Assembly: GCA_031763025.1 (NCBI GenBank)
Contig: JASSKH010000010.1
Span: forward strand, 5,513,901 to 5,577,900
Origin: Macrocystis pyrifera
Taxonomy: Eukaryota > Sar > Phaeophyceae > Laminariales > Laminariaceae
Direction of reading: 5' to 3'
DNA: 64,000 bases
Part shown: piece by piece, positions 22,193 through 63,780 of the stretch
How positions within the stretch are numbered: position 1 is the stretch's first letter
Layout of the letters: each line of letters starts with the position of its first letter
The notes under the pieces: model-generated
Told to the model about the DNA's origin: nothing
Database searches by the model: none
The model's input: the letters and a program-made list of their open reading frames with translations, nothing else
Position numbers and translations under genes: made by a program

Positions 22193-23202
22193 GTGAGGGT
22201 GGGAGGTTAACTCTTTTAGGACCGCAGTCTCCTTTCGGGGACAAACCAGTCAAATTCTAAGTATTTTGTCCGCAAAACCGGACTACGGTTCTGAAAGGGG
22301 CAAGACTGGGGTTTAGGTTGTGAGGAATGTAAGGGGTAAGGTGTAAGGTTTTGGTTAAGGCCAAAGCTTAGGTCATGGTGAAGGCTTAGGTTACGGGTGA
22401 AGCTATGGTTGTTAAATACACAGTTGAAGCTAAGGCTAAGGTTACAGTTATTTCTAAGGTTACGTTTAATGTTATGCTCATGGTCGAGGCTAAGGCTGTG
22501 GTTATGGCCAAGGGTGAAGTTGAAGGTTGCATTTGAGGTCAAGGCTAAGGGCTTTACTACTACAAACCACCTCTGAAGCTTATTCCAAGCATTGTCCCAA
22601 AAAAAAACTCGGGTGTAAATGCATGGGGAATTAGAGCCGGCTCCAAGGTAAAGGTGTGGCCATTATCTGTGCTCGACCTCTGCTGCTCTTGAGTCCTTAC
22701 TGGCCGTGGCGCTTGTCGCTTGCCATTCGACCAAGCTCGCGGATAAACCCATGTCGGTGTCTTCTTGTTTGCTGTGGATGCTGCGCCCACCGATGAAAAC
22801 CTAACACGACTTTGGCGGGTCGGAATCGAAAACACAACTTGTTCCTGACACCCCCCCCAAGCCGACGTCCTCCGTCCCGGCATTGTAGGGGTACATTGCG
22901 AGGGTCTACAGGTATGGTCATACGACTACGGCCATGAACAGGTCGAGTACAGCCCCCGCCCCCCCCCCCGCCCCGCCGCGCAATTCGTTCGATGCTGTCA
23001 TCCTTGAGCAAGAAAATCCGCCTCACAAGCGGTCATGAATAGGATGCAGCTCACCCTTCATGCGACTCACCCAATAACGGCGCTTCGCGCTTGGTGCAAG
23101 CCATGTCTCTCTGGTCGGCGAATACCCGACGTGCTCCGTCTCGGCATTGTAAGGAGCGAGGGTCTATGGTCGTACAAATACGCGCATGCATGACATCAGT
23201 CG

Positions 23203-23458: not shown

Positions 23459-25047
23459 TTCATGCATAATATACGTAACGGTGTTCGAACTCTCGACTTA
23501 GCTACCACATTGTAGTTTTTGCTTCGCCTCTCGGCGTTAGGAGCCTCGAAGAGAATCAAAGTTCCGGCCAATCACCTCTCGTTGATTACACTAACCAATC
23601 ACCCGCCGCCCCGAGAGTTTTGGTCAGCACGTTTTCGAGACAATGGTTTGGAGCCACTTGTGTAGGAGCCGAACATAACTATCCTAACCCTAGACCTATG
23701 AGCCAATCAGACCGAATCAACCCTGGCCCTAAGCCAATCAGACCACATCTCGAATAAATGGTAAGTTTTCGTACTCCCCCCCCCCTGTCTGGTCGGTGAA
23801 AACCCGACGTGCTCCGTCCCGGCATTGTAGGGATGCGAGGGTCTATGGTCTTACCGCTGAGGGCATGCGTGACATCGAGTACACCCCCCCCCCCTCTACT
23901 TCCTCCTCTCGACGCACTTCATCAATCGTCACAACGGATGTTTGAAATCTCGACGCGCTCATGCTTCTACGCCTAACGTTTCCACGTTTTTTTTTTCTTG
24001 TTCCCATCTGCCGGCGCTCTATAGACGCCCCGAAGAAAATCCACGTTCCGGAGTTCCTGGAGAACATAGTCATGCCCGAGGACACTCTGACCGGCATCTG
24101 CATGCGATACAAGGTACGCCAGGATTTCTGTGTGTTTTTTAACCCAGCGTTTTTTGCGGGATAAACTACTTGGAACTAGTATTGAATGGGGTCGGATGGG
24201 GTCACCTAACCCGGCCCGATCCGACCCGACCCGACTCGACCCGACCCGACTCGACCCGACCCGACCCAACCCGTGAGAAATCGAATACCTCCTGACCCGA
24301 CCCGACCCGACCCGATTCGAACCGTGAATTTCTGAAGATGATGCCAACCCGTGAACAGCCCTGATTTTTTCGTTGCCTTTCGCGCGCACTGCACCTTTTA
24401 CACGTGTTTTGGGGACGGTGACGTGAGAATTTGTGTGGGTTATTTTTCCTGCGCGTGAGTTTTTTTTCCCACGATTTCTGGAGAAAAAAGAGCACTTGGG
24501 AGTTTGTGGGATTTTTTTTTTTCTTTCATCCCTTAAGAATTGCATCCACGTTTTCGGGGGGGAAAATTACGTGTTCGAAATTGTCCTTAATCATTGGGAA
24601 TAGGGGACACCTGGGTGATATTTATTGGATAGAGCGAGCATGTGTGGTTGGGGTTGATTCAATGCGAGTCGACGGGGGAAGAAGTAAGTGCCGAACCATT
24701 CTCGTGATGAAATTGCAAGGCGCGTACCGTAGTGGAGGGGCGGGGGGAGGCTACCATGCTGAACGCCAGATCTTACGACTAATACGGGGGACCATAATAA
24801 TAGTAAGTAGAACTTAAGGTACACACAAGAACCCCTATATTTTCGTATTTTTACTGTAGTAACAATAATTGATCCTACGTACTGTGGTCGCCCGTAATAG
24901 GGAGGGAGGGAGGGAGGGAGAGAGAAAAAAAAGAGCGAACAAATAATATTTGAAGAGAATAGGAGGAAAAAAAGCGAAGAAAATAGAGCCAACATTCAGC
25001 GATAAGTTATTTCGTCGCCATCGAGGTAACGGCTATCGCGGCAATAG

Positions 25048-25132
<85 letters not shown>

Positions 25133-28100
25133 AGCTGTATCTATCGATAGAGATGACAGCCGGATTGGCAGTAAATATAACGGTCACACCAGCAGGTAAC
25201 AGTCACTAAATAAACAAAATCCGGAGTAGAATACAACCGGCGCTGAATTTCCAAGGTCAAGGACCGCGAGGCCCGGCGACTGAACGGTCTGGTGCAATAA
25301 CGAAAAGAGTGACAACGGCAGCGACGATAACAGCAGCAGCAGTAAAGTATTCCGAGGGACCATACTGCTGTAGTAATTAGGACCACATATTGTTAGTAAA
25401 AATAGGGGAATGTAATGGTTTTTGTGAATATCGTGGGTCCTATTTACTATGGCCCCCCGTAATGTCAATAGTATTAATGGCATGACAACAATAGTCGCGA
25501 CGATAATCGCTTAAAACAACGACGGAGAGCGTAAAACACCAGTATGAATAACAACAGTAGTCGTCATGACAATAGTCACAAGGACAGGACAGAGTGACGA
25601 AACGATGACTATCGTAGGAGCAACGGCAGTCTCAGCAGTACACAACCTCTTGGCCGAGCCTAGAAGGGGTCGACTATCAATAACGAGGGCCGACAAGTCC
25701 ATGACATGTAACATCGGTGGGGTGTCATGCTGAATCTGTGTTTGTTTTACAGATGGACTATTACGGGGGTCCATAGTAAATAGGACCAAACATTGTTAGT
25801 AAAAATAGGGAAATATATAGTTTTTTGTGTGTACCGTAGGTCCTATTTGCTATGGTCCCCCGAAATAGAACCGATACACGAATAAGAAAGTGTATTGGGC
25901 GAAAGCTTTTTTTTTTACCCAGATCTCCAAGGAGGATATAAAAAAAAGAAAAGAAAAAAAACAGTACACACAGCAATAGTGGAAACAAAGAGCCACAGAT
26001 CAATAACAGCGGCGGGAGTAACGGCAACAACTATTAATATTACGGGGGACCATAGTAAATAGGACCAAATATTATTGGTAAAAATATTGAAGTATATAGG
26101 CTTTTGTGTGTACCCTAGGTCCTATTTACTATGCCCCCCCGGAATAGCGCAACCAACATCAGCTTGCCCCGCGAAGGATCACGACGTGCGGCGTCTGAAC
26201 GGTCTCCTTTCACAACGGCCATCACGGCAAGTCACGATGAAAGTCGCGATGGCAGTCACAAAACACACACGGTAACAGCAATAATAGACTCCAAACATTG
26301 GCGACATCCATCACGATCACAGTCACAATGAACAGCGCAGAAGAACACGCTTAAAAAAAACATGAGTAAGAAACCATTAAATCGACATTTTTTTAATTAC
26401 TGTCGTCAGGTTAAGGATCGCGAGGTGCGGCGCCTGAACGGCTTCGTGGGAAACCACTTCCGGATGTGCGACTCCCTGATCGTCCCCAACAGATTCGCTG
26501 CCGGACAAGAGGTGAGCGAGCAGTCAGACAGCGCGTGGGTGATTTACTTGGGTTTCAAGTAGACGGCGCGCCTGCCTTTTCCTCGACTTACATGTGTCGT
26601 ATTCGCTGCTGTAGGAGTTGTATCATCTGTACGATGAGTTTCGACAGTATTCTCGATCTCACAGCTGATGTTTTTTTTCTTCACTTTTTTAACGTAGTGT
26701 GAGCTGTATGAGCTGCGCGGGTTTTGCACGAGTTGCCTTTATGGAATAATAGTATATTTTCTGTATGAGTTGTGGGAGCTGTATTATCTACCTAGGCTGT
26801 ATGAGCTGTATGAGCGGTATGAGTTGTATTGGATTTCAGTTGCATGGGCGGTAGGTGCTGACCGCGCGGTTTGGGCTTTTGCGTTGTTTGCGTGGCCTTA
26901 GTGTTGGTGTGACATTGTGTGCGGCCTAGCGTGTGGCTTAGCGTTTACCTTATATTGTATTTTAGCAGGAGGCATTTCCGTTATGTTCGGAACTACTGCA
27001 GGATTAGACTCCAATTAGAGGCGGTATCTCAACTCCCAACCCGGCGTTGTAGGGATGCGAGGGTCTATGGTCATACGACTACGACCATGCATGATAATGA
27101 GTACCCCCCCCCCACCTCCACCGCCTACTTACAAGTCGTACAACACATGTATCGAGTGCGCTAATTTCACTTTTTTTTTTTTTTTTTTTTGTCTGAGGTG
27201 TACCCCCTTCGCCTTGAGTAGTGCGTGTATCTTTCATCTTCAGGGCGCTTTTGGAGCCCACGTTTTGTGACCGTTACGAGGGGCATACCGCTCTCTCACT
27301 ACACGAAAGCGAGCAAATAATATTAATACTATTATGCCCTTGCTTTCGGGGACAGAAAAGTGGTGTCATGTTGTAATCGGAACTAGATTCGGGGACAGAG
27401 TGGTGTGATACGTTGTAATGGGAACTATTAATATGTTCGGAGACAGAGTGGTATGTTGTAATCGGAACTAGATTCGAGGACAGAGTGGTGTCATGTAATC
27501 GGAACTATTGTTCGGAGACAGTGGTATGTTGTAATCGGAACTGGATTCGAGGACAGAGTGGTGTCATGTTTTAATCGGAACTGTATTCGGGGGCAGAGTG
27601 GTATGTTGTAATCGGAACTAGATTCGGGGACAGAGTGGTGTCATGTTTTAATCGGAACTGTATTCGGGGGCAGAGTAGTATGCTGTACGTAATCGGACCC
27701 CACACTATGGACCCTGGCCGGAAATATAAAGACAGTTTATGCATGAACATGAATACAAAGCGGTTCTTATATTTTGGAGGCGAGTTACAGTGGTTGTACC
27801 CACTTAATGACCACCCCCTGACCTTGAAGACAATTTACGATGAAGGCAATTTATATGGTCTTGAATCTCCGCTTGTGAGTGTTGTCTTTTTTTACTGAAC
27901 AACTATCCCATACTATTCCCAAGCAGTGTTTTTTTTCCCTCGTGACGCGCCGATTGCCTGGTCTTATGTCTGCTATGGCCTTGAACCGGTTGCGCTGAAA
28001 GTGGGCCAGCTGTATTGCGAAAACAACACCCCCCCCCCCCCCCCCCCCCCCCCCACCGACTCGCCGAACACCGCACGGCGCTTCGCGCTTGGTGCAAGCA

Positions 28101-28150
28101 ATGTCTGCCTGGTCGGTGAAAACCCGACGTGCTCCGTCCCGGCATTGTAG

Positions 28151-28183
<33 letters not shown>

Positions 28184-30411
28184 CCCCCGACCCTCACCAC
28201 CCCTCCACCCAACCCCACGTCCTCCCACCACCCCTGTTCAGCCTAAACAAGACACCATTGGGCAGCAGCCGCTCACCGAGCCCGAGCTGCTCCAGAGCTT
28301 CAGCGTCTCCTCTCGATTGGGCACATCGGAGGCCAAGTACTACCTCGAGGGGAACAATTGGGACCTGGACAAGGCGCTCAAGGAGTGGCGCGATGAAAAG
28401 GCCTGGGAGCCTGAGCAGGTTTGTTGTTGTTGCTGCTGTTGTTGAGAGTCGATAGACTCTTCTTTTGCGAGCCGAGACTGCTTTGGTTCGGTTGGGATCG
28501 GTCGGGCCGGGTTGGGTTGGGGGGTATGGTAGGCTGGGTTGAGATAGGTTGGGTTGGGTTGCGTTGGTTGGGCTAGGTTGGCTTGGGCCGGGCTGGGTTG
28601 GGTTGGGTAGGGGTGAAGTGAGGTGGGGTTGGGGGGAGTTGGATTGGGCTGAGTTGGGGGTAGGGTGGGATAGAGGGTAGGATGGGGTGGAATTAGGATT
28701 GCGGTGGGTTGGGTTGGGTTGGGTTGGGTTGGGTTGGGTTGGGTTGGGTTGGGTTTGTTGTCGTTAGGCGGGAGGTTTTTGCAGCCCAGGAGGCGGACGT
28801 TTATACCTGTGACGGACCGCGGTCCAGAGTCAACGTACTAATGTGCTATTACGGAGGTCAATAGTAAATAGGACCTACGGTACACACAACACCTATATAT
28901 TTACCTATTTTTACTAACAATATTTGGTCCTATTTACTATGGTCCCCCGTAATAGTAATTGTAGTGTGAGCTCCTGAAAAGGTGTCATTGACCGCGTCTA
29001 ATTCTACAGTCTCGTGACACATCTGTGAACAACCAACGTCTCGGGTTGGGTTAGGTTGGGTTGGGTTGGGTTGGGTTGGGTTAGGTTGGGTTGGGCTGGG
29101 TTGGGTTGGATTGGCTTGTGTTAGGGTTGGGCTGGGCTGGATTGGATTGGCTTGTGCTAGGGTTGGGTTGAGGTGGGTTGGGTTGGTGTGGGTTGGGTTC
29201 GAATGAAGGTTCTCATTGCTGCATGCATCGTGTGGTTACCGCTATTTGTTGCAGCAGGCGCAGGAAACACCATCGACGTCGGTGCCGACGAAACGCAGTT
29301 GGACGCGGCAGCGAAGCCGGAAGTCAGTGGGCTCGCGTCAAGCCGAGGCGGCTCCGCGCGGACGTTTCCAGGTGCGTTGTGCTCCGCCCCGAAAACAAAG
29401 GGAGGGACACTCACGCGTTCGCGGTCATGGCTGGATACTCCCACTATTATTGCGTAAAGTGACACGACGCATGTTGTACGTGTATACAAAAAAGTAGAAA
29501 CGGGGGTAGTGGGTCTGGTGGGATCGAGGATTGCGTCGAAACTCATATTTTATTGCAGAGATGCGTGTGACGCTTCGATCGCGCGTACGAGGTTTGTTCG
29601 GCCCCTATATGACATACCTGGTACTTGTATAGGGAGAGAGGTTGGGTTGGCGTCGGTTGGCGGCGATGCTGTTGAACATGCCTCTCGCTGCGTCAGCTAG
29701 ATAACCAGAGTACCGTTTTTTGTTTTGTTTTGTTTTTGGCGGTCACCGCGGCTGGTGATCGAATTAGATCATTTTTGTGCGGGGAGAACCTTAACTCCGC
29801 ACAGGGGGGATGATCGTATCACCTATATGGCAGGGCACCCAAGAGGCAGTTACATAGTAAACCCATTGCTGTCTCTGGAAGTGGTGACACCAGAAAACCA
29901 AATCAAATCATTGACGCTCAACGGCGGTTTCTAGTAGGATGCAGATCACCCTTCATGCGACTCGTCCAACACCTCACGGCGCTTCGCGCTTGGTGCAAGC
30001 ATGTGTCTGCTTGGTCGGTGAAAACCCGACGTGCTCGGTCACGGCATTTTAGGGATGCGAGGGTCTATGGTCATACGACTACGGCCATACATGATAATGA
30101 GTACACCCCCCCCCCCACCCCCCCCCCGGCGTCTTTTTTGTTTCCGCCAGGCCACTTAGGGGACCACCTTGAACGGCAACTACTTGGTATCGGATGAGGC
30201 CTCTATACAGATGAACACCGCGATAGACTCGCGGACGCCCGCGTTCCGCTGCTTTCCGCGCAAGCCTGCCGCTAGCTATCGTTGCAGCGAAAACACACAA
30301 GACAGCGTAGCCGCGTTCGGGGGAAGGAAGATACAGAAAGCAAGGGGCTGGAGTATGACGGGTGTAGGATTCTCCGCCGCCTCTAACGCTTTTCGGACGA
30401 AACCGAGCTGA
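22034..30411 (+). CDS. LysM domain protein with UBA-like C-terminal motif (multi-exon)
   Basis: Exons: 22,034-22,192; 24,025-24,113; 26,410-26,511; 28,242-28,418; 29,255-29,371; and a last exon at 30,211-30,411. All junctions are GT-AG and splice phases agree (1,0,0,0,0). LysM (exons 2-3) reads HVPEFLENIVMPEDTLTGIC then MRYKVKDREVRRLNGF and MCDSLIVPN, the classic DTL-G-RY-V-LRRLN-I-P pattern. Exon 4 gives an EAKYYLEGNNWDLDKALKEW motif typical of UBA/TAP-C-like folds. With no signal peptide seen and a ubiquitin-fold-binding-like motif, an intracellular LysM adaptor is more likely than a secreted chitin receptor, but that is inference. The first coding exon (before 22,034) was not found. The last two exons are less certain. 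Confidence 0.75.
22205..22305 (+). repeat. Palindromic MITE family M2 copy
   Basis: ACTCTTTTAGGACCGCAGTC...GGGGACAAACCAGTCAAATTC, then the mirrored TTTTGTCCGCAAAACCGGACT. It matches the copies at 41.1, 55.1 and 61.2 kb and has no M1 insertion. Confidence 0.7.
22306..22560 (+). repeat. Degenerate GGCTAAGGTTA hexamer-like repeat
   Basis: Intronic run of words such as AAGGCTAAGGTTAC, AAGGCTTAGGTTA and GGTCGAGGCTAAGG with loose ~6-bp periodicity. It resembles a strongly decayed telomere-type array. No gene. Confidence 0.6.
22861..22978 (+). mobile_element. Poly(C)-tailed retroposon, truncated copy
   Basis: Keeps CGACGTCCTCCGTCCCGGCATTG, GAGGGTCTA and GGTCATACGACTACGGCCATG, then GAGTACAG and a C run. 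It lies in the LysM gene intron. Confidence 0.75.
23040..23275 (+). mobile_element. Poly(C)-tailed retroposon with 73-base C run
   Basis: Begins GGATGCAGCTCACCCTTCATGCG and includes CGCTTCGCGCTTGGTGCAAG, the TCGGCGAATACCCGACGTGCTCCG hairpin and GGTCTATGGTCGTAC, then ends in 73 uninterrupted C (23,203-23,275), the longest homopolymer in the window. The poly-Pro and poly-Gly frames over it are artefacts. A separate C run (23,424-23,457) follows without recognisable element sequence. Confidence 0.85.
23788..23894 (+). mobile_element. Poly(C)-tailed retroposon, truncated copy
   Basis: Starts abruptly at CTGTCTGGTCGGTGAAAACCC and ends GACATCGAGTACACC plus a short C run. It lies about 130 bp upstream of LysM exon 2. 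Confidence 0.85.
24025..24113 (+). CDS. LysM gene exon (first half of LysM domain)
   Basis: The acceptor follows a T-rich tract (TTTTTTTTTCTTG...CTCTATAG) and the donor is AAG|GTACGC. It encodes APKKIHVPEFLENIVMPEDT and LTGICMRYK: the first strand and helix of a LysM, with the conserved DTL and the RYK/RYG position. Confidence 0.85.
24196..24330 (-). repeat. (GGGTC)n-type degenerate repeat
   Basis: ACCCG/ACTCG units in the intron after LysM exon 2. A similar block with both orientations is at 42,295-42,350 in Sec3, followed there too by CCCGTGAGGTTTGACC-like sequence, so this is a dispersed repeat rather than only a local microsatellite. Confidence 0.7.
24779..24900 (-). repeat. MITE family M1 copy
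   Basis: Full length but diverged: TAATACGGGGGACCATAATAATAG at the left, GGTCGCCCGTAATAG at the right. Confidence 0.85.
25051..25135 (+). repeat. (TC)n microsatellite
   Basis: About 40 TC units with one interruption, inside the LysM intron between exons 2 and 3. Confidence 0.95.
25248..25292 (+). repeat. Partial duplicate of LysM exon 3 start
   Basis: AAGGTCAAGGACCGCGAGGC then CGGCGACTGAACGGTCTGGT aligns with the first ~40 bp of exon 3 at 26,410 (VKDREVRRLNGFV versus VKDREARRLNGLV) with a few changes. It then diverges into GAC/AACAG-rich sequence. A second partial copy is at 26,165-26,205. Confidence 0.7.
25348..25463 (+). repeat. MITE family M1 copy
   Basis: Left end altered (TATTCCGAGGGACCATACTGCTGTAG), right end GGCCCCCCGTAAT. 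Confidence 0.8.
25758..25868 (+). repeat. MITE family M1 copy
   Basis: Near-consensus: CTATTACGGGGGTCCATAGTAAATAGGACC and mirrored right end with a single change (CCCCCGAAATAG). Confidence 0.92.
26037..26147 (+). repeat. MITE family M1 copy
   Basis: Near-consensus copy, the third within 0.8 kb of the same intron. The right end is CCCCCCCGGAATAG. Confidence 0.92.
26165..26205 (+). repeat. Partial duplicate of LysM exon 3 start
   Basis: GCGAAGGATCACGACGTGCG then GCGTCTGAACGGTCTCC, an AKDHDVRRLNGLL version of exon 3, about 245 bp upstream of the intact exon. Confidence 0.65.
26410..26511 (+). CDS. LysM gene exon (second half of LysM domain)
   Basis: Acceptor TCGTCAG|GTT and donor GAG|GTGAGC, phase 0 at both ends, 34 codons. 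It encodes VKDREVRRLNGFVGNHFRMC and DSLIVPNRFAAGQE. The RRLN and LIVP elements complete the LysM fold begun on the previous exon. Confidence 0.88.
27032..27117 (+). mobile_element. Poly(C)-tailed retroposon, short copy
   Basis: Only the last ~80 bp remain: CCCGGCGTTGTAGGGATGCG, GGTCTATGGTCATACGACTACG, CATGATAATGAGTACC, C run. Confidence 0.85.
27335..27690 (+). repeat. Minisatellite, ~40-45-bp unit
   Basis: About eight copies of (G)GGGACAGAGTGGTGTCATG then TTGTAATCGGAACTAGATTC, with length variants, inside the LysM gene intron before exon 4. Confidence 0.9.
28027..28182 (+). mobile_element. Poly(C)-tailed retroposon between two C runs
   Basis: A C run (28,030-28,054), then GACTCGCCGAACACCGCACGGC...TCCGTCCCGGCATTGTAG, then a second C run (28,150-28,182). 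The terminal ~50 bp (GGGATGCG...GAGTAC) are missing, so this tail begins inside the element. The second C run is about 60 nt upstream of the exon 4 acceptor and is followed by further C-rich sequence that forms the polypyrimidine tract. Confidence 0.8.
28242..28418 (+). CDS. LysM gene exon (UBA-like motif)
   Basis: Acceptor CCTGTTCAG|CCT and donor GAGCAG|GTTTGT, 59 codons, phase 0. It encodes PKQDTIGQQPLTEPELLQSF, then SVSSRLGTSEAKYYLEGNNW, DLDKALKEW and an acidic end. The F-SVSSRLGTSEAKYYLE-WDLDKAL pattern is that of a three-helix UBA/TAP-C-like domain. Confidence 0.88.
28500..28765 (+). repeat. GGGTT-rich repeat
   Basis: Degenerate G-rich pentamers ending in about eight perfect GGGTT units (28,708-28,755). 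A related block is at 29,040-29,205. Both flank an M1 MITE in the intron after exon 4. Four-G-tract motifs could form quadruplexes. Confidence 0.85.
28846..28955 (-). repeat. MITE family M1 copy
   Basis: CTATTACGGAGGTCAATAGTAAATAGGACC left, consensus right end. Confidence 0.9.
29040..29205 (+). repeat. GGGTT-rich repeat
   Basis: GGGTTGGGTTAGGTTGGGTT units merging into GGCTTGTGCTAGGG variants, ending about 50 bp before LysM exon 5. Confidence 0.85.
29255..29371 (+). CDS. LysM gene exon (basic tail), frame uncertain
   Basis: Follows TTTGTTGCAG and ends at TTCCAG|GTGCGT. In the frame dictated by the phase-0 donor of exon 4 it reads QAQETPSTSVPTKRSWTRQR then SRKSVGSRQAEAAPRGRFQ. A second frame (AGNTIDVGADETQLDAAAKP...) has more natural composition and would join phase-1 to a short exon at 30,151-30,197 (HLGDHLERQLLGIG, stop) behind a strong acceptor, but it needs a phase-1 end to exon 4 that I cannot see. 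Transcript data would decide. Confidence 0.5.
29640..30127 (+). mobile_element. Poly(C)-tailed retroposon, full-length reference copy
   Basis: About 490 bp, the most complete plus-strand copy. Order: 5' end GGTTGGGTTGGCGTCGGTTG; CGTCAGCTAGATAACCAGAG; a T-rich tract; GGCGGTCACCGCGGCTGGTG; TTGTGCGGGGAGAACC...CTCCGCAC (hairpin); GGATGATCGTATCAC; CTGTCTCTGGAAGTGG; GGATGCAGATCACCCTTCATG; CGCTTCGCGCTTGGTGCAAG; TCGGTGAAAACCCGACGTGC (hairpin); GGGATGCGAGGGTCTATGGTC; ATACGACTACGGCCATACATG; ATAATGAGTACA; poly(C). It has no ORF and no recognisable tRNA-type promoter. Copies share the 3' end and differ in how far 5' they reach, as retroposed elements do. It lies in the intron before the last LysM exon. 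Confidence 0.85.
30211..30411 (+). CDS. Putative last exon of the LysM gene
   Basis: After CTCTATACAG the frame continues in phase 0 for 66 codons (MNTAIDSRTPAFRCFPRKPA ... WSMTGVGFSAASNAFRTKPS) and stops with TGA. The composition is protein-like and the phase fits exon 5. The acceptor lacks a clear polypyrimidine tract, and a competing acceptor (TTTCCGCCAG at 30,150) leads to a short alternative ending. No domain is recognised. Confidence 0.4.
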   Translation: MNTAIDSRTPAFRCFPRKPAASYRCSENTQDSVAAFGGRKIQKARGWSMTGVGFSAASNAFRTKPS

Positions 30412-31380: not shown

Positions 31381-31525
31381 GCGTGGGGGGGGGGCGGGGG
31401 GGGGGGGGGTGTACTCATTATCGTGCATGGCCGTAGTCATATGACCATAGACCCTCGCATCCCTACAATGCCGGGACTGAGCACGTTGGGTTTTCACCGA
31501 CCAGGCAGACATTGGCGGGGGGGGA
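31381..31525 (-). mobile_element. Poly(C)-tailed retroposon, truncated copy
   Basis: On the minus strand: CTGGTCGGTGAAAACCCAAC, the GGCATTGTAGGGATGCG block, CATGCACGATAATGAGTACACC and C run (G at 31,386-31,410). Confidence 0.85.
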
Positions 31526-32949: not shown

Positions 32950-33068
32950 GGGGGGTGTACTCATCATGTTATGCATGGCCGTACGACTACGGCCATGGAC
33001 GCTCGCACCCCTACAATGCCGGGACGGAGCACGTCAGGTCTTCACCCACCAGGCAGACATGGCTTGCA
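32950..33068 (-). mobile_element. Poly(C)-tailed retroposon, truncated copy
   Basis: Minus-strand copy from CATGTCTGCCTGGTGGGTG to ATGAGTACACCC. The immediately following 33,106-33,166 is a second, much shorter copy with its own C run (three G runs within 110 bp), so this is a cluster. Confidence 0.8.
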
Positions 33069-33105
33069 CGAAGGGGGGGGGGGGGGGGGTTAGGCGCGTT
33101 GTTGA

Positions 33106-33166
33106 GGGGGGGGGGGGGGGGGGGTGTACTCATTATCATGCATGGCCATAGTCGTATGGCCATTGT
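33106..33166 (-). mobile_element. Poly(C)-tailed retroposon, 45-bp remnant
   Basis: Only the 3' terminal CAATGGCCATACGACTATGG, CCATGCATGATAATGAGTAC and the C run remain. A further C run (G at 33,169-33,185) lies to its right. Confidence 0.75.
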
Positions 33167-37441: not shown

Positions 37442-40400
37442 CTGGACAGGGGGGGGAGTGAGGGGGGCAAGCAAGCCGCGGCGATGGCAGCGGGGGTGGT
37501 AGGGTGGTGGATGATGAAGAGAAGGGGGGGGGGGGGCATAGGGGGTGTGGTGAAGATAGAGCGGAGAGCGGGGGGCGGGGGGGGGGGGCGTACTCATTTG
37601 TTGCTTGCCTTAGTCATGTGACCATTGACCACGCATCCCTTTCGAGACGGAGCACCGTTCCTACTCCTAATAGAGACACCTCCAACAAATGGGCGCTCAT
37701 TACGTTGTTTCCATATATTACATAGAAACTTTTTGCTAATCTTATCCCCTTCCTGTTTGGCCTCCTGTGGCCACCATCTATCTCCTAGGATAGCGATCGT
37801 TTTCTCGCTGCTATTCATTGTATCGAACTCCTCCATGTCACATTCGTCTATTTTCCTCATCTCCTCTTCTAACACATCCCGTTCTGTCTTGTATATTTCA
37901 CATTCTCCTACTATTGATATGAGTTCTACTCTCTATTGCTTTGCCACACGGGCACATCTGTGCGTCTACTTCCTCCTCCCGGCTACTGGTGTATCTCCTT
38001 CTTCTTTCTGGCAGGTCCAGGTCCCCTACACGAAAGCGCAGTTTCAGCGTTTTCGCGAAGTCCACTGGGCCATGCAAATACGTTTCCATTCCTATTCCTT
38101 CCCTCAATCCCCCGTATATATCTCAAGTGTTTGTCTGATTCCACCTTGTTTCTTAGCGCTAGCCTTTCCCTTCTTTCTATCCTTCTACTTCTGCCTTGTA
38201 CCTCCCAAACTTATCGGCGGACATAATCCCTTCCATACTTTCTCAACTACGCCATCCCACCTTATTCCAGCTCGCCCTTTTCTTACTTTCTCCCATACAG
38301 CTCTATCAACTATGGCTGGCAACCTCTTTTTAGGCATGTTCCTTTATATTGCCAGTTCAACTTTCTCATGTCTCTATTTGTCTTGAGTGGGCGCATTCCC
38401 AGTTCTGCTCTTAATACTGTATTACTAGTCGTACTTGAGCATCTTAGGATTTTTTTAGCTGCTGTCATTTGTACTGTTTCCAACTGTTTTACGAGTTTCG
38501 CGTTCCCTTCCCATACTTCTCCTGCATATTCTAGCTTTGGTACTATCACATTCATCAAGATACTTCTCTTAATCCTAGTGTCAAGGTTCGGGTCTGTTAG
38601 GATCGCATCCATCTTGCCTACTTGTGCCTTACCCTTTCCTATTACTTTTGCTATATGTGTATCCCAAGAGCAGTCTTTTGAGATCTCTACGCCAAGGTAT
38701 GTATACTGGTCTACGATCGGCAATTCATCTTCTCCCCACTTCCAACTGAAATTTACCGGGTTTACCAAATCTTCGTTGCAAACAACTACTGCGCATTTCT
38801 TGACGTTCGCCGTCACCCTCTATTTCCTGGTGTATTCTAGCGCCTTTGTTTCTGCAATCCTTCGGGTGTTTCTGATATCCCCACGAAGTCATCCGCAAAC
38901 ATCAATCCCGACACCGTATCTTCCCCTACCGTGACTCCCTGCCTTGCTCCCTCGACTGCTCCTATCAGGTCGTTAATATATATATTGAATAAGTTAGGTG
39001 ACAGCGTACATCCCTGTGCAACACCTTGTAAAATATCAACATACTTCGATATTTCCCCCCGTCCAGCATCACAGCACTTCTCTCACATTCCGTCATCTTT
39101 TTCATCATTCTCCACATCTTTCCTCTGATTCCTATTTCCCACAGTTTTTTTCCACAATCCATTTCTCCATACTGTGTCGTAGGCTTTCGGCACATCTAGA
39201 AAGAAACAGTACGTTGTTAGTCCCGCGTCTTTCCTACCTTGAATAATCTTACCTAAGGTGTACACATGGTCTACGCAGCTACGGTTTGGCCTAAACCCTG
39301 CCTGTCCTTCGCTTATTTTGTCTTCCTTCTCCATCACCGTTCCCATTCTATCATTCAAAATCTTACAAAATGTTTTGCCTACTGTGCTTAGTAGCGTTTT
39401 CCCTCTATAGTTCCCCGGGTCAGCCTTATCTCCTTTCTTGAATAAATTTACTACTACTCCTTCTCTCCACCTCCTAGGTGCGTACTCGTTTTTCCATATC
39501 CAGTTATACAACATAACCATCATGGTAAGCATTCCTTCTCCCCCGTACTTCATAAATTCATTCACTATTTGGTCTGCCCCTGCTGCCTTTCTATTCTTAA
39601 GTTTAGCTACACACTTCTTCACCTCTTCCCTTGTGAGCGGAGAGGGGGGGGGGGGGTGTACTCATCATCACGCATGGCCGCAATGGTATGACCATACACC
39701 TTCGCATCCCTACAATGCCGGGGCGGAGCGCGTCGGGTTTTCACCGACCAGGCAGACATTGCTTGCACGAAGCGCGAAGCGCCGTGAGGTGTTGGGCAAG
39801 TCGCAATAAGGGTGAGCTGCATCCTACTGAACCGCTTGTGAGGCGGATTCTCTTGCATATGGATGACAGCATCAATGAATTTATTTACTTTCTGGTGTGG
39901 CCACTTCCAGAGACAGCAATGGGTTCACTATGTACCATATACCTGGTACACACTATGTGATACGATCATCCCCTTTGTGCGGAGTATAGGTTTTCCCCGC
40001 ACAACATGATCCAACTAGACCGCCAGCCGTCGTAACCGCCAAACAAAACAAAAAACGGTACTCTGGCTGTCTAGCTCACGCAGTGAGAGGCGTGTTTTAC
40101 AGCGTCGTCGCCAATCGACACCAACACAACCTATATATAACAGGTATTAAATATAGGGGGGGGGGGGGGGGGGGGTGGGGGCAGGAGGGGGGAGGCGGCT
40201 ACGCTAGGAGTGCACCTACATTTTATGAGATGCTTCTCGTTTAAAGGTGTATACATGCTTTCAAGACCCACAAATTCGGGGCTATTATTAACAGAAAAAA
40301 CTGCAAGCTCAACCCGATATGAGCAAGCTCAAAACCCATGGGCCCGGAAATGTAACGAATACTATCGTTAAAAACCCAAACGACTACAATGGTTGGGTAG

Positions 40401-42666: not shown

Positions 42667-45600
42667 GTAATCATTATCATGCATGGCCGTAGTCGTATGA
42701 CCATAAACCCTCTCATCCCTATAATGCCGAGACGGAGCACGTCGGGCTTTCACCGACCAGGAAAACAGTGGGGGGTGGGGAGGATCATTACGCGACGAGA
42801 AGGAGCCATGGAGAAACCAAACAGGAAAACGGGCATGCTCCTTACCGAGGAAACCAGCTCTTCCACCCTCACGAAGAACTGGGTCAGCGTCGGGAATTGA
42901 TAGCCGACGAGCCACTGAAGGTATCTGCACATCACATGGTTGACCAGATGATGAGGTGATGATCAGATGATGACAAGACGATGATCAGACGATGACCAGA
43001 CGATGCTCAGACGATGATCAGATGGCGACAAGTTCTTGATCAGATCGTGACAAGACGATGGTCAAGCGATAAACACACGATGACCAGATTATTATCCCAT
43101 GATGACTAGAATCTATGATGACGAGCTGATGATCAGATGATACCATGACCCGACGATGACCAGAGGATGACGAGATGAGGACAAGATGATCATATCACCG
43201 CCACAAGTGCTAGCAAGATGGAAGACAAGAACATGGGGCCCCGCTCCAAGAGTGATTCGGAACACGAAGCAGCGGCAGAGGCAAAACATCATTTCCAGCC
43301 GAGCATTGACGCAACGGTAAGGTGGCTTCGTGAAGGACGTTTTCAGTCGGGTACCGCTATACGGGGGCGTCGCAAAACACAGTTGAGGTGGTTTCGATGC
43401 CATATTTTTTTTTCCTTGCTTTAATGATCGTTCTTCAGGTGGTAGCATGAAGAATAGTATTTACATTATTTTGTTTTGATCTTCGTTTTTCCCTTTCCAG
43501 CTCAACCCGTATTGTACAAGTATTAAAAAAGGAGGCATTTGCCCTCAGCGGCCTTTTGGGCCTTAAGCCGCTTGTCACGGGCGTCTTCCCCTCTCCCCCC
43601 TCGGGATATACGTGTTCTCACTTCTATCGCGCAGGGGGTGCAGCATTCCAACTGCTCGTCGATTTTTATCGAGTTTTGCCAACTCGCTCATACCGGTGTG
43701 GTATAAGAGAAATCACACGCAGTAGTAATCTAGTGTATCATCGGTCCACAACTGTACCAAGGATGTCTTTGACAGGGTAAACCATACTCTCACAGGATAC
43801 CCCGGTATAAGTGCTCTGCGGGGTACCAGGGTATATGTACTCTGGGAGTACCCGGGTATAATCCTCTGGGGTGATCCGGGCATATTACTCTGCGGGTACC
43901 CGGGTATATTTATTCCGGGTGTAACCGGGTATGCATACTCACAGGGTACCCCCCGGCCGGTATATCTTCTCCGGAGGTTCTCGGGGTACATGGCCGAGGA
44001 CTGAATAACCCAAACAACCAGGTTTGGCAGGACTTATATACCTCAGAGTTCGTACAAAGTATTGGATTTGTATACTCGTACAACTACTCGAGTGGACACA
44101 GACGTAAGAAGTACCTGGTGGTGGCGACCTCCTCAAGCGCCTCTGCCTGAGCGATGTACTCGTCCAGCACATGGACCTGAAAACAAAAATGATCACAATC
44201 ATGGCCGAAAGTGAAGGCGAAAAGTGGTTTTGAAGCCGGCACTGAAGGTCTCAAGTAAGGGAGAAACTGAAAAAAGAAAAACGGTGAAAAGTGAAACCAA
44301 AATCATTCGACATGGATGACGAAAGAGCAGGCGAACCGTGGAAACGAAAGTGACATCGAAAGTCTGAAGTTGAAGGAGAAACTGAAAATTGGAACCAAAA
44401 CGATCAAAATAGTTGATGAAATTGAAGGCGACAGCGAAAACGACGCTGACTCTGAAAGTTTCCAGTGAAGAAAGCATAAAAAAGATGATAAAAAGTGAAA
44501 AAAAAAAAGCGAATGTTACGGCGAAGGTGGAAAAAAGTGAAAATGAAAGTGAAGGTGACGGAGAAAGAGGACGTGGAAATGACGGCGATGATGTGCAAAG
44601 TGAAAGTGAAAACGAGAGAGACGGTGGAAACGAATATTAGAGCGAAAGCGAAGGTGGCACGGCAGTGAAGGGTAAAGTGAAAGCGAAAGTTGACATGAAA
44701 GTGAAATTGAACATGAAGGAGAAAGTGAAAATATGTGGAAATGAAAGCGAAGCCAAAAGTGAAGGTGACAGTCAGAGCGACAACTGGGGGGAGAGTGAAG
44801 GGAAGGATAAAGTCAAAGTGAAGGTGAAAGAGAAAGAGAAGGTGGAAATGAAAGTTAGAAAGCGAACGGGAAGCCGAAAGTGAGGTAGTGAAAGTGAAAA
44901 GTGGAAGTGAAATTGAGAAACGAAGGTGAAAGTGAAGGCGAAGCTAAAAATGAAAGTATGGATCAGAGTGAACATCAAGGGGATGGTGAAGGTTGGAAAT
45001 AAAAAAGGTGAAAGAGAAAGAGAACGTAGAAATAACAGTGACAACCTACGTGAAAATGAAAGGTAAAATGAAGTTGAAACTGAAGCGGAAGGGCGGGGTG
45101 GGCGGGGGGGGGGGGAGGGGTGAAGGCGAAGGGGGGGCGGGGGCAGAAGGTAGACGCGATCCGGAGCTGAAGGTAGAAAACGATCGGGAAAAGAGAGCAC
45201 GAAAAATGACACACGAAAAAAAACCCCGTCAAAAGCACAGCAACAGAACGGCGGCAGCGTGTTGTATCGAATCGCAGGAAACAGTTTCGACAACAATACG
45301 TGCTCGATATGTATAACCAACCACCACAAAAAATAGAGTGATTAGTTGAATGAAAATTCGTCGACAGCAGCAAAAGAACGACGGCGTGCCGTCTCATGTC
45401 GCCACCAATACTATATTACGTACGTGCGCATGCATTCCTGAAAGGAAAACGCAACGAACAACTACTCTGTCCACCTGTCTCTTAGAATTCGTGCCTGTCT
45501 GTTTACGCGCCTTTTCGCCTGAACATTGCCTGCCCATACTGCGAGTGTGCTGTCTGCCTGTCAGTCTACCGCGGGACGGGGCTTGGTAATTCGGGGCGGG

Positions 45601-48600
45601 GGACAGGACAAGCGAGAAGCAATGCTCAACACAGCGCATAGGTTTGCGGTTCGTCAGCTTTGACTGCGGGAAACGACGACCGCGACGCCTAATAATAGTG
45701 GCCAGCCTTTACCGTCGTCACGAGGCCGAGATCTCGCGACGCAAGCGGCTCGAGGGGGCGGAGGGGAAAGGAGACGATCTGTCTTCTATCTGCCTGCCTG
45801 AACCTCTTTGTCTGTTTGAATGCCTGGCTCTCTTGTCGGTCTGTTTGCCTGTCTGTCTGTCTGACATTGTGCCTCTCTTCTGTCTGCCTGGCTGTCTCGT
45901 CGGTCTGCCTGGCCGTCTGTCTGCCATTGTGCCTCTCTGCTTGGATGGCTCTCTTGTCTGTCTGTCTGGCTCTCTTGCTTGTCTGTCTGCCTGGCTACCT
46001 GGCTGGCTGCCTGCCTTCCTCGTGTGTCGACTGACTAACCTTCAGCGGCCGAACCGTAGCGGAGAAGAAGTGGTAGTTCTCGAGACGAACCATGTGTTCG
46101 TACTTGGGGTTGCTGGCGGCGACGTCCTCGATGTGCTTGAACAGCAGCAGCACCAGCCTCTGGTAGAACTTCTGCGCTTCCGCCTATAAACAGAACGCGC
46201 GCAAAAAAGAAAAAAAACGCGTACAAGAAACCAAGGTCGACATAGCAAGAGAGCATATCATAAAAACGCCAACGACCCAACGTTATCCCATGGAAGCCAC
46301 TGCTGCTTTTCCCGCCCACCCACACACCCAGACACACAAGCCGTGCTCCGCGTCCCTACGCGACACCAATCCAGCATAACCAAACCAACCCTAACCCAAC
46401 CCAACGTATTTAATTACGAACACATCTGTTACTCTTGGGAAAAATATCTCAGTCGGCACATTGCGGGGAGGGGGGGGGTACTCGATATCATGCATGGCCG
46501 AGGTCGCATGACCATAGACCCTCGCATCCCTACAATGCCGGGACGGAGCACGTCGGGTTTTTACCGACCAGGCAGACAATTGCTTGCACCAAGCACGAAG
46601 CGCCGCGAGGTGTTCGGCGAGTCGCATGAAGGGGGAGCTGCATCCTACTAAGAGCCGCTTGTGAGGCGGACTGGCGTATGGATGACAGCTTCAATGAGAG
46701 AGGCGTATGGATGACAGCTTCAATGAGGGGGGGGGGCATCACCAGCAAATACGAGAAACAACGAAATGTGTTTCCAGGCACTTGTTGGTGGGAACAGCCG
46801 AATTATAGCCACATGTCGAATAGGGTGGTCAATCGCCTACTGTTTCAAACTCTACCAGATGCTAGGTACAAGTATCACTGAGTGCATATCATGTTTCAAC
46901 TCTACCTCCTGCTTCCCCTTGGGATCGACTGACATTGAATAAAAAAATACAAGGTTTAAAAATACAAATACTATGCTGGACTACTGTACGGCCCAACCAC
47001 CCACTGTACTCTTCTGTGCTGCACTGGACGATTCAATCGCCAAAGCACCGTACTGCTGAGCGGCTCAATCGGCTACAGTCATGCCCGCTACACACTACCG
47101 GGTACCATCACCAAATAGTGAGGAATATGTTTCAAGTTTACCTCCTCCTTCCCCTTGGAGCCGACTGCAGCGGTGGCCGCCGCCTCTAATTTCTTGAGTA
47201 GCGTCGGAAGTTTAGCGACGGCAGCGAGGATGCCCGCCTTTTTCCCGTCCCCCTTCTGCCCTGATATCCAAGTCACCTGTCCCGCGCAAATCCATACGGT
47301 CGTAAACGGTACGGTAAACTGTGAATTGCACGGTGAGGTCAAACGGTACATAGCACGGTACGGTAAAGCGCACGGCGCAGTAAGCGCACTTCTTACTACG
47401 ACAAACGACAGATAAGGCACGGCAAGCGGTTCGATACACGACACGACACGGTACACGGTACAGTACGCGATACGCCACGCGGGACGCTACACACAGCACG
47501 GTACACGGTACGGCACGCGGTTGTACGCGTCCGGTAATCGAGCGAAAAACTAAAAATGTTATCGCCGACAACCCCAAAAATATCAAACTCGAAACCCCAC
47601 AAGCGCTGCTACTGTAACCGTTTCACTTTATACTGCGAAAATTACCCTCCACTTGAGTCCAAGTAGCTTTTTGCCCCCCAAAAAAGTTGCAGTTCAAGGC
47701 GGGGATAAGGAGCCGGGTGTTTCATTCGACATACATTACCGTACTGTCTAGTGCATGACTGCAGACAGTGTACAACGCTCATAACCCCACGAAAAACAAA
47801 TGTCAGATTGGCCAGCTCGGCCCGGTCTCTAACACAACCGCCTCATGGACCGGAAAAAAGCCGCTCTTGAGAACCAAAAAGAGGCGGGAACTTCGCTCGA
47901 CCGGCGCCCGGCAGTCTTCTACTTCTACCAAAGTATGGTTATTAATAGCTATGGTCTGCTATTTTTTTTTCAGGTTTTGGCGTTTACTATCCATTGGGGA
48001 TGTACAAGGTGCAAGGCATCCCTTCGGAGGCATTCAGACGCGGGGTGAGGGGTACCCCGAGGCAGAATCCGATGACGTTTTGTACAGCTGAAAAAGATCG
48101 GAACGCGTACCATTCGTTGAATTTTTCAAGTCTACACAGCCCACAAAGCGAAAGGCATAACGAGCGGCGAAAGGAAATCGGTACACACACAACTCTCAGC
48201 GTAAATATAAGTATAAGTACCGCTTGCTCTTCATGCTCATGTCTATTACGGTAATGGACCATAGTAAATAAGACCAAATATTGTTAGTAAAAAGAGAGAA
48301 ATGTACAGGTTTTTGTGGTACAGTGGGTCCTATTTACTATGGTCCCCCGTAATAGACGGTCTATATATGTACGCCCAGGGTACATACTACTATGAGTTAC
48401 CCGGACACTAAACTACGGCTGTTGTGGTCCTATTCGGGTATGCACTCGGGTATAGTGTACACCCTACAGAACACACACTCATATTTTCACAGGAGAAGAA
48501 AGCGCACAGGCCACGTCAATACAACCTTGAACGTACAAATTAACAGGACGGCAAAAGCAAAATGCAAAACGCAACAAGAACAGGCAAAGCAAGAAAAAGC

Positions 48601-51600: not shown

Positions 51601-53455
51601 TTGATGCAATGATATTGATGCAAGATTGCCTTGATACAGGCACGTCTACCGCGATAAAAATACAGAAAGACTTGGATAAAAAATACAGAAAGACTTGGAT
51701 AAAGAAGCAGCCCAGGTATAACTACGGTATGACTATTTCGGTAAGACTGCTGTAACGATGCACATGCATGCAATACTATTCCACCACAACAGTAAGAATC
51801 CAGTAAGGCTGCCGTGAGACTAGACCATTGCTGTAAGACACCTGCTGCTGTGTCACAATACCTGCTGCTGCAAGACTGGACCGCTGCTGTGGGACACCTA
51901 CTGCACCACAATACCCGCTGCTGTAAGACTAGACTGCTGCGAAAAGACACCTACTGCTGTGTCACAATGCCGCTGCTGTAAGACTAGACTGCTGCTAAAG
52001 TCATTTACGGTACCACCATACCTGCTGCTGTAAGACTAGTCTACTGCTGTAAATAACCTACTGTCGTGTCACAATACCTGCTTTGGTAAGACTAGACTGC
52101 TTCTGTACGACACCTAATGCACCGCAATACCTGCTACTGCAAGACTAGACTACTGCTGTAAGACACCTACTGCGCCACAATACCTGCTGCTGTAAGACTA
52201 GACTACTGCTGTGAAACACCAATAGCTGTGTCACAATACCCGCTGCTGCAAGACTAGACCGCTGCTTTAAGGCACCTACTGCACCACACTATCCGCTGCG
52301 GTAAGCCTAGACTACTGCTGTAAGACACCTACTGCGCCACAATACCTGCTGCGGTGAGACCAAGTAGACGCATCGCAATAGACTGCAAGACGGGACCACT
52401 GCTGTAAATGACCTACTTCGAATAACAACACCTGGCATATTGTAAAACATACCGGCGTCAGCTGCTGTTGGAGCATCATGCTCCCAGGCGCCTTCGACGG
52501 CGGCTCTGGGGCCTCCCCTATCGAGGCCCGCTCCATAGACGCCAACCCGGGGTGGCTGTGCTGGAAAACAATTCGCGGGATGAGCTCGCTGAAGTACGCT
52601 TTGATGCGCGCCTAAAAATGTCAGCATCGAGGAGACGGTGAGCAGGAGGGAAGGGGGGGGGGGGGCGGGGTAGAGGTTCATTGCCGGGGTGGAGGTTCAC
52701 TGTCATACATGGCCGTAGTGGTATGACCATAGACTTTCGCACCCCTACAACACCGGAACGGAGCGCATCCGATTTACACAGACCAGGCAGACATTGATTG
52801 TTTGCACCAAGCACGAAACGCCGCGAGGTGTTGGGCGAATTGCGTTACGGGCGAGCTGCATCATACTAAGAACCGCTCGTGACGCGGGGTTTTTTTGCCT
52901 ACGGACTTAATTTTTTTCTGTTTTTTTTTTTCCCCCGTCGTGGCCACTTCCAGAGACAGCTATGGGTGTACTATGCAACTGTCTCCTGAGTGCCTTTACC
53001 ACATGTATACCTGGTAAACTCTACGTGATACGATCATTCCCCTTGTGCGGACTTAAGGTTCTCGACCCTGCAGAAGTGTTCAAACTCGACCACCAGCCAT
53101 GGTGACCGCCAAACAAGAACAACATGTGGGAGGGGGGGGGTGCACTCATGTCCTGCATGGCTGCAGTCTTACGACTATAGACCCTCGCCATAGACCCTCG
53201 CATCCCTACAATGCCGGGACAGAGCACGTCGGGTTTTTACCGACCACGCAGACATTGCTTACAACAAGCGCCAAGCGCTGTGAGGTGTTCGGCGAGTCTC
53301 ATGAAGGGGGAGCACCACCAGGGAGGGGTGTACTCGACATCCTGCATGGACGTAACGAAAAAAGAACATAGACCCTCGCATCTCTACATTGCCGGCACGG
53401 GGCACGTCGGGTTTTCACCGTCCACGCAGATATTGCTCGCAAGCACGAAGCGCCA

Positions 53456-53496
<41 letters not shown>

Positions 53497-62949: not shown

Positions 62950-62992
<43 letters not shown>

Positions 62993-63146: not shown

Positions 63147-63780
63147 CTGCTCGGCAAAACACGCACACCAACGGATGCCAGACACCACCACACACGTTGT
63201 TAAGCAAGCAAGTGAGCAAGTGAGCAAGCCAGCAAGCAAGCAAGCAAGCAAGCAAGCATACATTTAGTCAACCAAGCGAGCACGCACCAAAACGGGAAGG
63301 AAACACAAAAAAGCGAGCTCCGTAGCGCCCACAAAAGCGGGGAAGGAAGGCAAAAAAAAAACGAGCTATATCGCGCGCACAAAAGCGGGCATACTCCGCA
63401 CCAAAAAACGAGCGAATCAAAATGAGAGAGATCGGGTTCGCGTCTCAGTCTGTAACCTCTGTACGAACTGTCTTCGTGGCCGAGACCAAATGCCAAATAA
63501 CGACACCAAGGTGTACGCAGTATGAAAGCAAGCACGCATGGGCCCGCCATGTAGCGCGCGGGACACAAGAGCAGAAGATGACCATTTCAACACTGCAAAC
63601 AAGATGACAAGACAATTCAAATGCTTGAAAACAAGGATACGACAGCGCAAACAAACGAAAAGATAGCACAATGCAAAATGAACGAAAAAAAGTACCCAAG
63701 AAGGCGAAGAAGCAAGCACACACTCCAGAAAAAAAAAACACTATCCCTTACCCCCCGCTAGCACATATTATATATATATA
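63147..63780. other. Sec3 intron, AAGC-rich
   Basis: (GCAA)n at 63,205-63,257 and scattered AAAGCGGG and GCGCACAAAAGCGGGC words with loose repetition. No exon recognised. Confidence 0.5.

Follow-up and report, generated by a model that had tools for sequence, protein, structure and literature searches.

A short retroposon sharing its ends with a LINE and probably inserted into C-runs in the genome of the kelp Macrocystis pyrifera

The 64,000-bp stretch of Macrocystis pyrifera DNA analysed here (the window) harbors many copies of a short element and a truncated copy of a LINE (Table 1). Using positions 29640-30105 as the blastn query, the short element was found at 17 places, on both strands, and the same 17 places were recovered with a 520-bp query derived from an alignment (23 rows, of which two low-complexity matches at 11418 and 19350, three LINE matches and one LINE 3' end at 37590 were excluded). 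All 17 places listed in the original prediction, in both orientations, do carry copies; the type copy that it placed at 29640..30127 is a full-length one, but its true start lies upstream, in an AT-rich block (29606). The tail motif ATGATAATGAGTACCCCC, allowing up to three mismatches, occurs seven times in the window versus 0.04 expected, and its exact form is present 570 + 554 times in the whole genome, versus none for the reversed control. Rfam microRNA matches in the window scored below gathering and were discarded.

Table 1. Short-element copies, LINE copy and associated C-runs in the window
Feature	Position	Strand
Full-length short element, type copy of the original prediction: AT block 29606-29639, core 29640-30104	29606..30104	+
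C-run past the 3' end of the type copy, broken by A	30105..30127	+
Full-length short element including the AT block; adjoining C20 upstream (40156-40175), C13 downstream (39644-39656)	39658..40155	-
Partner LINE copy, 5'-truncated, RT part; sits in the C-run behind element 39658-40155	37590..39636	-
Left half of the likely target duplication of the LINE: C13, then TCTCCGC (next TC may be LINE)	39637..39656	-
Right half of the likely target duplication of the LINE: C12 G C6, then GCTCTCCGCTC	37559..37588	-
Full-length short element, 5' part, cut off by the window end	63772..64000	+
5'-truncated short element; C8 directly upstream (22851-22858)	22859..22936	+
5'-truncated short element, then C73 (23203-23275)	22981..23193	+
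5'-truncated short element; C10 (23776-23785) on one side, C11 (23884-23894) on the other	23785..23882	+
5'-truncated short element; C-run on the downstream side only	27040..27104	+
Short element cut at both ends; C26 (28029-28054) before, C32 (28151-28182) after	28057..28150	+
5'-truncated short element flanked by C-runs	31411..31514	-
5'-truncated short element; C17 upstream (33073-33089), C7 downstream	32957..33073	-
38-bp short element; flanks C17-TCACA / A-C19-TCAACA (likely duplicated C-run plus TCA)	33126..33163	-
5'-truncated short element, then C43 (42623-42665)	42667..42770	-
5'-truncated short element; upstream C10 at 46727-46736, downstream C-run	46478..46697	-
5'-truncated short element, 3' end decayed	52697..53122	-
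5'-truncated short element, 3' end decayed; C9 at 53132-53140 farther downstream	53188..53313	-
5'-truncated short element; C40 directly upstream (53456-53495), C4 downstream	53330..53454	-
5'-truncated short element; C39 downstream (62952-62990)	62824..62934	+

The 3' side was scored in the 16 window copies whose 3' end lies inside the window. A run of at least seven C's begins no more than 25 nt past the matched 3' end in 13 of them, the exceptions being the copies at 52697 (decayed end), 53330 (C4TCCC) and 53188 (C9 only beyond the decayed end). The copy at 28057-28150 lacks its last ~50 bp, yet it directly adjoins C32. On the opposite side, 11 of the same 16 copies carry C5 or more at up to 25 bp from the 5' junction, a feature that the first reading had overlooked.

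The structure of the element was then described on a genome sample of 159 copies with an intact 3' end, part of which had been picked by the tail plus CCCCC, so that the 3' side of this sample is biased. In 106 copies the 5' end is truncated, with starts scattered over the whole length, while the other 53 are full length and headed by the AT-rich block, whose length is 20-34 bp in most copies and ranges between 0 and 37 bp overall. A 5' inversion of the twin-priming sort was seen in a single copy (L086, no gap).

The same genome contains a 5.9-kb LINE (copy L059), whose single 1137-aa frame joins an endonuclease domain (Exo_endo_phos, 9.6e-11) to a reverse transcriptase (RVT_1, 1.6e-29), i.e., the APE endonuclease plus RT in one frame that characterizes APE-type LINEs; ten PDB sequences were matched, each of them an R2, an L1 or an unnamed RT chain. 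The two elements have both ends in common: 43 bp on the 5' side of the short element match the L059 5' end (91%, E 1.8e-12), and its final 74 bp match the L059 3' end (74%) through AATGAGTAC. The 3' ends were aligned using 30 short-element and 18 LINE sequences, a part of those available. The LINE 5' motif has 56 exact copies in the genome, at least 12 of which, counted by eye among the 150 matches listed, sit 3.4-4.1 kb upstream of an RT match. A 3' stem common to the two elements was also considered and rejected, RNAalifold giving only three pairs (-0.03 kcal/mol).

LINE-dependent retroposons are marked by a 3' end that also occurs in an RT-coding LINE of their genome; the short element is thus very likely a non-autonomous retroposon of this kind, a SINE in the broad sense, which the LINE protein would mobilise. 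The retroposition put forward in the original prediction is supported by the fixed 3' end, the prevalent 5' truncation, the LINE with a matching 3' end, some target-site duplications and the 5' inversion. Copies sharing both ends equally had been named there as evidence to the contrary; this is partly the case, with C on both sides and one third of the sample (53/159) full length, a pattern that fits insertion into C-runs. The origin of the element is explained in part, both its ends being referable to a LINE.

No A or B box is present in the 520-bp query and the full-length copies contain T-runs of at least four, which makes Pol III transcription unlikely. The tRNA, 7SL or 5S promoter that was not evident from the sequence did not emerge here either: the type copy has no Rfam match up to E 10 and ARAGORN found no tRNA within the window. 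On the same grounds a classical SINE, with a Pol III head and a tRNA, 5S or 7SL origin, was rejected. A self-cleaving 5' ribozyme was rejected as well, since Rfam gave no match and folding of the first 121 nt is not better than that of shuffles (z -0.43). Relatives in viral contigs were looked for with one 24-base pattern, which had no exact match.

Most copies of both elements are bordered by C-runs on either side. Among the 106 truncated short copies, 72 have C5 or more no farther than 25 bp upstream of their 5' junction, versus 3.3% of random window positions, and none has G5 or more there. The LINE behaves alike: 16 of 22 truncated copies have C5 or more upstream, and 19 of 20 LINE 5' ends, versus a background of 5.2%, have such a run at most 40 bp from the motif. 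Targeting of C-runs is a preference, since 34 of the 106 truncated short copies have no run within 25 bp upstream. Of 45 cases compared, 23 (19.4 expected) have the same first base beyond the C-run at the two sides. In a separate series, copies lie ~11.1 kb apart on C125; rDNA was considered for it and rejected, no Rfam match being found within the 5 kb checked.

The clearest case is offered by a repeat unrelated to both elements, whose C-run is C4-C5 in all 17 empty copies read and reaches C9 in variants. Four insertions in the same sense, three short elements and one LINE, are located in that single run, the comparison being one among paralogues of the repeat. Both flanks were read for two short elements (L040 and L137, the latter as GCAA-C15-element-A-C8-TCTACCC) and for the LINE (L100/L120, interior left unread), and the right flank only for the third short element (L138), whose right-hand run, C3AC6, is no longer than the C9 variants. 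In L100 the left side lacks ~8 bp of target sequence (TTGCAACT), so that there is no clean duplication. Within the sampled loci, one clean empty site was found (L040/L031), the remaining rows being chains of copies or duplicated regions. The C-run counts and the four insertions in one run are those of a target-specific LINE, and, judging from these flanks, we think that insertion is aimed at the C-run, which would be a target as well as a tail, and primarily a target; the poly(C) tail of the original prediction is therefore at best half right.

Target-site duplications, which the first reading had suggested looking for, are clear in single cases. Duplications holding non-C letters include C10GTCA (L018), C9TTCCT (L011), ACTCCCACCCCTCCCTG (L022), CCCCCGTCTCGAA (L050) and, at the LINE of the window, CTCTCCGC(TC); they are about 8-17 bp long, without a single fixed value. 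Such duplications are few. Among truncated copies they number 9/106, above the 2.7 expected when the pairs are shuffled (60 shuffles, maximum 7), although two of the nine are units of a single tandem array (L014). Full-length copies do not exceed the shuffles significantly (10/53 versus 6.7, maximum 12), and one of these ten is an element end instead. An earlier scan of 114 copies, not allowing for the AT block, had given 18, 11, 6, 5, 3 and 2 copies with at least 2, 3, 4, 5, 6 and 7 non-C letters, respectively, versus 100 shuffles with means of 6.7, 3.0, 2.1, 1.9, 1.7 and 1.3 and maxima of 16, 7, 6, 5, 5 and 4; the three highest rows of the scan were rejected, element ends or AT blocks having matched there by chance. 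Duplications made of C alone cannot be told apart in such counts.

It might be argued that the C-run is the RNA's own tail or an untemplated addition, and that the 5' C-runs are mostly the tails of older copies hit by new insertions. In the 40 bp at each end the longest C-run is longer at the 3' than at the 5' side in 100 of the 159 copies and shorter in 53, and of the 34 truncated copies that lack a 5' C-run, 25 show immediate C's at the 3' end, both counts being affected by the sampling bias of the 3' side; moreover, an element-like end lies within 100 bp upstream in 45 of 159 copies, and L016 has a C17 next to what may be a TTGTCGC duplication, one that does not exceed chance. However, among the 72 truncated copies that have a 5' C-run, 42 lack GAG[TC][AG]C within 100 bp upstream (a search that decayed ends escape), the four insertions share a site that was just a short, plain run of C's within a repeat foreign to the system, and the duplicated C-rich target of L022 and of L001 meets the 3' end directly, without any added C-run. 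We consider this explanation unlikely.

Two further possibilities appear far less probable. C on both sides, the 53 full-length copies and the AT-rich 5' block might recall a DNA transposon or a Helitron with both ends fixed and a C-rich target, but the scattered 5' truncations show that the ends are not both fixed, they are shared with an RT-coding LINE and the duplications vary in length; a Helitron 3' end is CTRR, from which GAGTAC differs. Nor is it credible, except as a very slight chance, that long C/G runs joined unrelated contigs into chimaeric flanks. Chimaeric contigs with poly C/G boundaries do occur in another PacBio assembly, according to the available part of PMC12542154; yet at the common site the flanks of the three insertions read on both sides are the same repeat in register, thousands of tail copies have a single orientation relative to C, and short runs of 5-15 C occur alongside the long ones.

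The whole is thus most probably explained by a non-autonomous retroposon of ~0.5 kb, with LINE-derived ends and a different middle, copied into C-runs by the APE endonuclease and RT of the LINE. The endonuclease would nick the G-strand of a C-run, and the freed G-ended primer might pair with the C at the 3' end of the RNA (GAGUAC, perhaps plus extra C's), where target-primed reverse transcription would begin. Slippage on the homopolymer, or C's brought by the RNA, could lengthen the run, and second-strand joining would duplicate part of it, so that the duplication would often be all C and not recognisable. Since the C-runs remaining at either side of an insertion would be new targets, copies would pile up in chains.

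It is known that the homopolymer at the end of the best-known LINEs and SINEs is A, that L1 and Alu pair with A-runs at the target, and that the targets of such elements are A/T-rich sites or defined repeats; the short elements of trypanosomatids include RIME and NARTc. C-runs are therefore an unusual landing site for mobile DNA of this kind, and a limited literature search found no retroposon with a C-run as target or tail. The closest known system, likened by description, is that of RTEX-N1_Ec32 and the RTE-X LINEs of the brown alga Ectocarpus, the former a non-autonomous element of ~600 bp with more than 6000 copies, the most abundant single family, whose 3' end is common with LINEs, whose 5' source the authors could not determine and which they hesitate to call a SINE (PMC12477816, partial text). 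The kelp element resembles RTEX-N1_Ec32 in size, non-autonomy, host group and LINE-matching 3' end, and differs in that its 5' part matches a LINE 5' end and in its C-runs, unmentioned in the portion of that account available. Mammalian L1/Alu likewise combine a LINE and a non-autonomous partner with a 3' homopolymer lengthened upon insertion, 96.5% of new Alu inserts being full length (PMC3415434, in part), whereas the kelp element uses C instead of A, has both ends matching a LINE and no Pol III promoter found, and is mostly 5'-truncated. Togen, as far as the available text of PMC4640811 describes it, is a LINE inserting into the (TG)n microsatellite, i.e., also into a simple repeat; the kelp target is a mononucleotide run, down to 4-5 C in the resolved case, and the preference is not strict and is common to the LINE and its partner. 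Finally, trypanosomatid LINEs and SINE-like elements have in common a short 5' sequence, the Pr77 promoter, that drives transcription (PMC8190864, excerpt). The 43-bp motif of the kelp elements can be regarded as a putative promoter only. To our knowledge, no C-run target has been described for the trypanosomatid elements.

It is an evenly balanced proposal that both elements possess an intrinsic homopolymer specificity, directed at the G-strand of C-runs, and that each insertion doubles and lengthens the run and so yields two good landing sites. The pair would thereby create its own targets, give rise to chains and be one of the main sources of the kelp genome's long C-runs, for which it would account. 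A system based on C suggests that the pairing between the RNA end and the target matters, not which letter is used; it would provide a naturally occurring test of the way in which an APE endonuclease chooses a homopolymer and, possibly, a tool for insertion at G/C-runs. It also shows a possible source of the 5' end of such algal elements, left open by the Ectocarpus authors.

The dispersed family was traced by blastn, and each of the 17 places listed in the original prediction was recovered, on both strands. In the window (GC content 50.3%), the tail motif occurs seven times with up to three mismatches, versus 0.04 expected; in the whole genome (537,376,219 bases in 223 contigs), its exact form occurs 570 + 554 times, the reversed control giving 0, and the 5' motif of the short element 712 + 693 times. 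In all, 159 copies whose 3' end is intact were read together with the flanks. These were drawn from the window, from 8 + 20 + 40 loci out of the first 100 listed among the 1124 exact tail matches, and from 30 of the 44 matches to the type copy, the locus of the long LINE copy (L059) being also in the searched set. Sequences whose 3' end was not intact, those with too short a flank, places represented twice, and pieces of LINE ends (recognised by a flank ending in GTCTCGAA or GTCCCGAA) were excluded before counting. The 5' side of the sampled copies underwent no selection; the counts of 3' C-runs are inflated because part of the sample was picked by the tail plus CCCCC.

In the alignment of 46 full-length rows, the short element is 520 bp long and is composed of an AT-rich block of about 24 bp, followed by GGTTGGGTTGGCGTCGGTTGG..., a T-run in the interior and GAGTAC at the end; a second 3' variant harbors an additional ATCTCTCCTATCGAGTAC. 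Position 29640, proposed as the start of the type copy, is the start of the core, and the AT-rich block lies upstream of it. The variable 5' end was confirmed, 106 copies being truncated versus 53 full-length. The median divergence from the majority sequence is 6.8% (97 copies longer than 150 bp). In 50 of the 53 full-length copies, a raw count based on a loose rule, the stretch from the core to the last C-run (three or more C's) is either AT-rich and up to 50 bp long or shorter than 4 bp. One copy (locus L138) contains, near its 5' part, a hairpin-like insert of about 100 bp, TTACGGGGGTCC...GGACCCCCGTAA, which by eye is MITE-like. The type copy and its flanks (about 29.4-31.7 kb of the window) recur in inverted orientation about 168 kb away (L030, C190:5375857-5376327, minus strand) with about 95% identity. 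The 5' motif is present five times in C125:1566075-1610416, at a spacing of about 11.1 kb, as would suit a large unit repeated in tandem; Rfam gave no match on 5 kb (L139) of this series.

Features located in the window
Feature	Position	Strand	Remarks
Partner LINE, 5'-truncated	37590-39636	-	Behind full-length short element
Second LINE	12099-15821	+	1240-aa open frame with endonuclease and RT domains; 22% protein identity to partner LINE
Inverted partial copy of second LINE's end	8561-9679	-	By eye
Tandem array	60486-61064		Units of 22/44/66 bp
Tandem array	35076-35611		Units of 41 bp

With a piece of the RT of the window's partner LINE, the genome yielded 5070 first-look candidates, including 150 scored matches. 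The long copy L059 extends from GGGTTGGCGTCGAGTGGCGACGACGC to AACAAATGAGTAC, then a C-run, and contains a frame of 1137 aa with APE endonuclease and RT domains, with another frame after it. Positions 25-67 and 447-520 of the short element match L059 (43 bp, 91%, E 1.8e-12, and 74 bp, 74%, respectively); the remaining matches in the same comparison were T-runs or chance. The LINE tail with C's occurs, in exact form, 1738 + 1748 times in the genome (control 0), and the LINE 5' motif 32 + 24 times. Twenty of these 56 5' ends were read, one flank being common to two of them: the start before the motif is CTCTAAATCTG in 11, ACAAAATCTAGATC-like in five and other in four, and a run of C5 or more lies within 40 bp of the motif in 19 of the 20 (background 5.2%). 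Transcription of the short element by Pol III is unlikely; at a guess, the 5' motif common to the two elements might act as a promoter, by analogy with Pr77, the trypanosomatid promoter described in the available text of PMC8190864.

Among the truncated short copies, the 25 bp upstream contain a run of C5 or more in 72/106, versus 3.3% of random window positions, and a G-run in none of the 106; downstream, the figure is 100/106, on a side biased upward by sampling. Of the truncated LINE copies, 16/22 have a C-run upstream and 20/22 downstream. The upstream run is not merely a recognisable older tail, since in 42 of the 72 copies GAG[TC][AG]C is absent from the preceding 100 bp; a looser pattern finds an element-like end upstream of 45/159 copies, so that the short elements also form chains. 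In the window, 25 of the 51 C-runs of 8 or more have a same-strand copy within 30 bp, C-run lengths being approximate in this PacBio assembly.

When the insertion is removed, the flanks of locus L040 match a different repeat, present without insertion in L031. This repeat (L031:2860-3070) and its relatives are high copy, the best 40 of the 1052 first-look candidates, which were those scored, being at least 96% alike; the site carries C4 in L031, and C4 or C5 in all 16 read among the best 40. A genome-wide count of one exact version of the empty site gave 143 + 125. Places where GAGTAC lies no more than 30 bases from CTCTACCCGCCAG were searched for by pattern, which could detect insertions in this sense only; of the 19 obtained, 16 are variants of the repeat that themselves contain GAGTAC and have C-runs reaching C9, and three are insertions. 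Four insertions, including L040, are thus located in the same C-run and in the same sense. L137 reads GCAA-C15, element, A-C8, TCTACCC; L040 is bordered by C11 on its left and by a C/G run of 17 bp on its right; the LINE, of which the two junctions were read (L100 on the left and L120 on the right, 5.8 kb apart), shows C8 at its left junction, where about 8 bp of the target are lacking, and CT-C14 at its right one. In L138, where only the right flank was read, this is ACCCACCCCCC. The three sites read on both sides have a C-run on each, at least one longer than in any empty copy seen; in L138 the run on the side read is not longer than in the empty copies. The comparison of these four insertions with the empty copies (C4/C5 in those read) indicates, therefore, that a short C-run predates the insertion.

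Target-site duplications, as looked for under the predicted retroposition, gave a modest signal in bulk: they exceeded the shuffles in truncated copies (9/106 versus 2.7 expected, maximum 7 in 60 shuffles, two of the nine coming from one tandem array) but not significantly in full-length ones (10/53 versus 6.7 expected, maximum 12). Most duplications would fall within the C-run, and hence be uncountable; the first base past the run is identical on both sides in 23/45 cases, versus 19.4 expected. The visible duplications start with the C-run and extend into the right flank, as in C10GTCA (L018), C9TTCCT (L011), C7TTTGAA (L021) and C5GTCTCGAA (L050), and, for the window, in C-run-CTCTCCGC(TC) flanking the LINE and C-run-TCA flanking the short copy at 33126-33163; that of L022, ACTCCCACCCCTCCCTG, is C-rich throughout. 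In L086, 214 bp of the element are inverted directly before the 5' junction, as twin priming would produce. The C's might alternatively be carried by the RNA itself: the upstream run is missing in 34 truncated copies, and the C's lie immediately at the 3' end in 25 of these, which points to this possibility, whereas in L022 and L001 the duplicated target is joined directly, with no C-run added, which argues against it.

The short element is of the same general kind as RTEX-N1_Ec32 of Ectocarpus, as far as the available main text of that study (PMC12477816) describes it, and 'poly' as a whole word is absent from this main text. No C tails or C targets of retroposons were found among the listed papers of the open-licence literature, by searches that possibly missed the spelling 'poly(C)' and do not establish absence from print. 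LINEs with microsatellite targets (PMC4640811) and, for Alu, tail expansion upon insertion (PMC3415434) are already known from the available text of the respective sources.

The short element and the LINE have matching ends and a common target, and C-runs are located on both sides of most of their copies. As for the priming of insertion at the target run, a nick might occur on the G-strand of the C-run, the G-primer would pair with the RNA end, and slippage on the homopolymer may take place. The duplications starting with the C-run fit a G-strand nick inside the run, or at its left border, with the other strand cut a few bases to the right.
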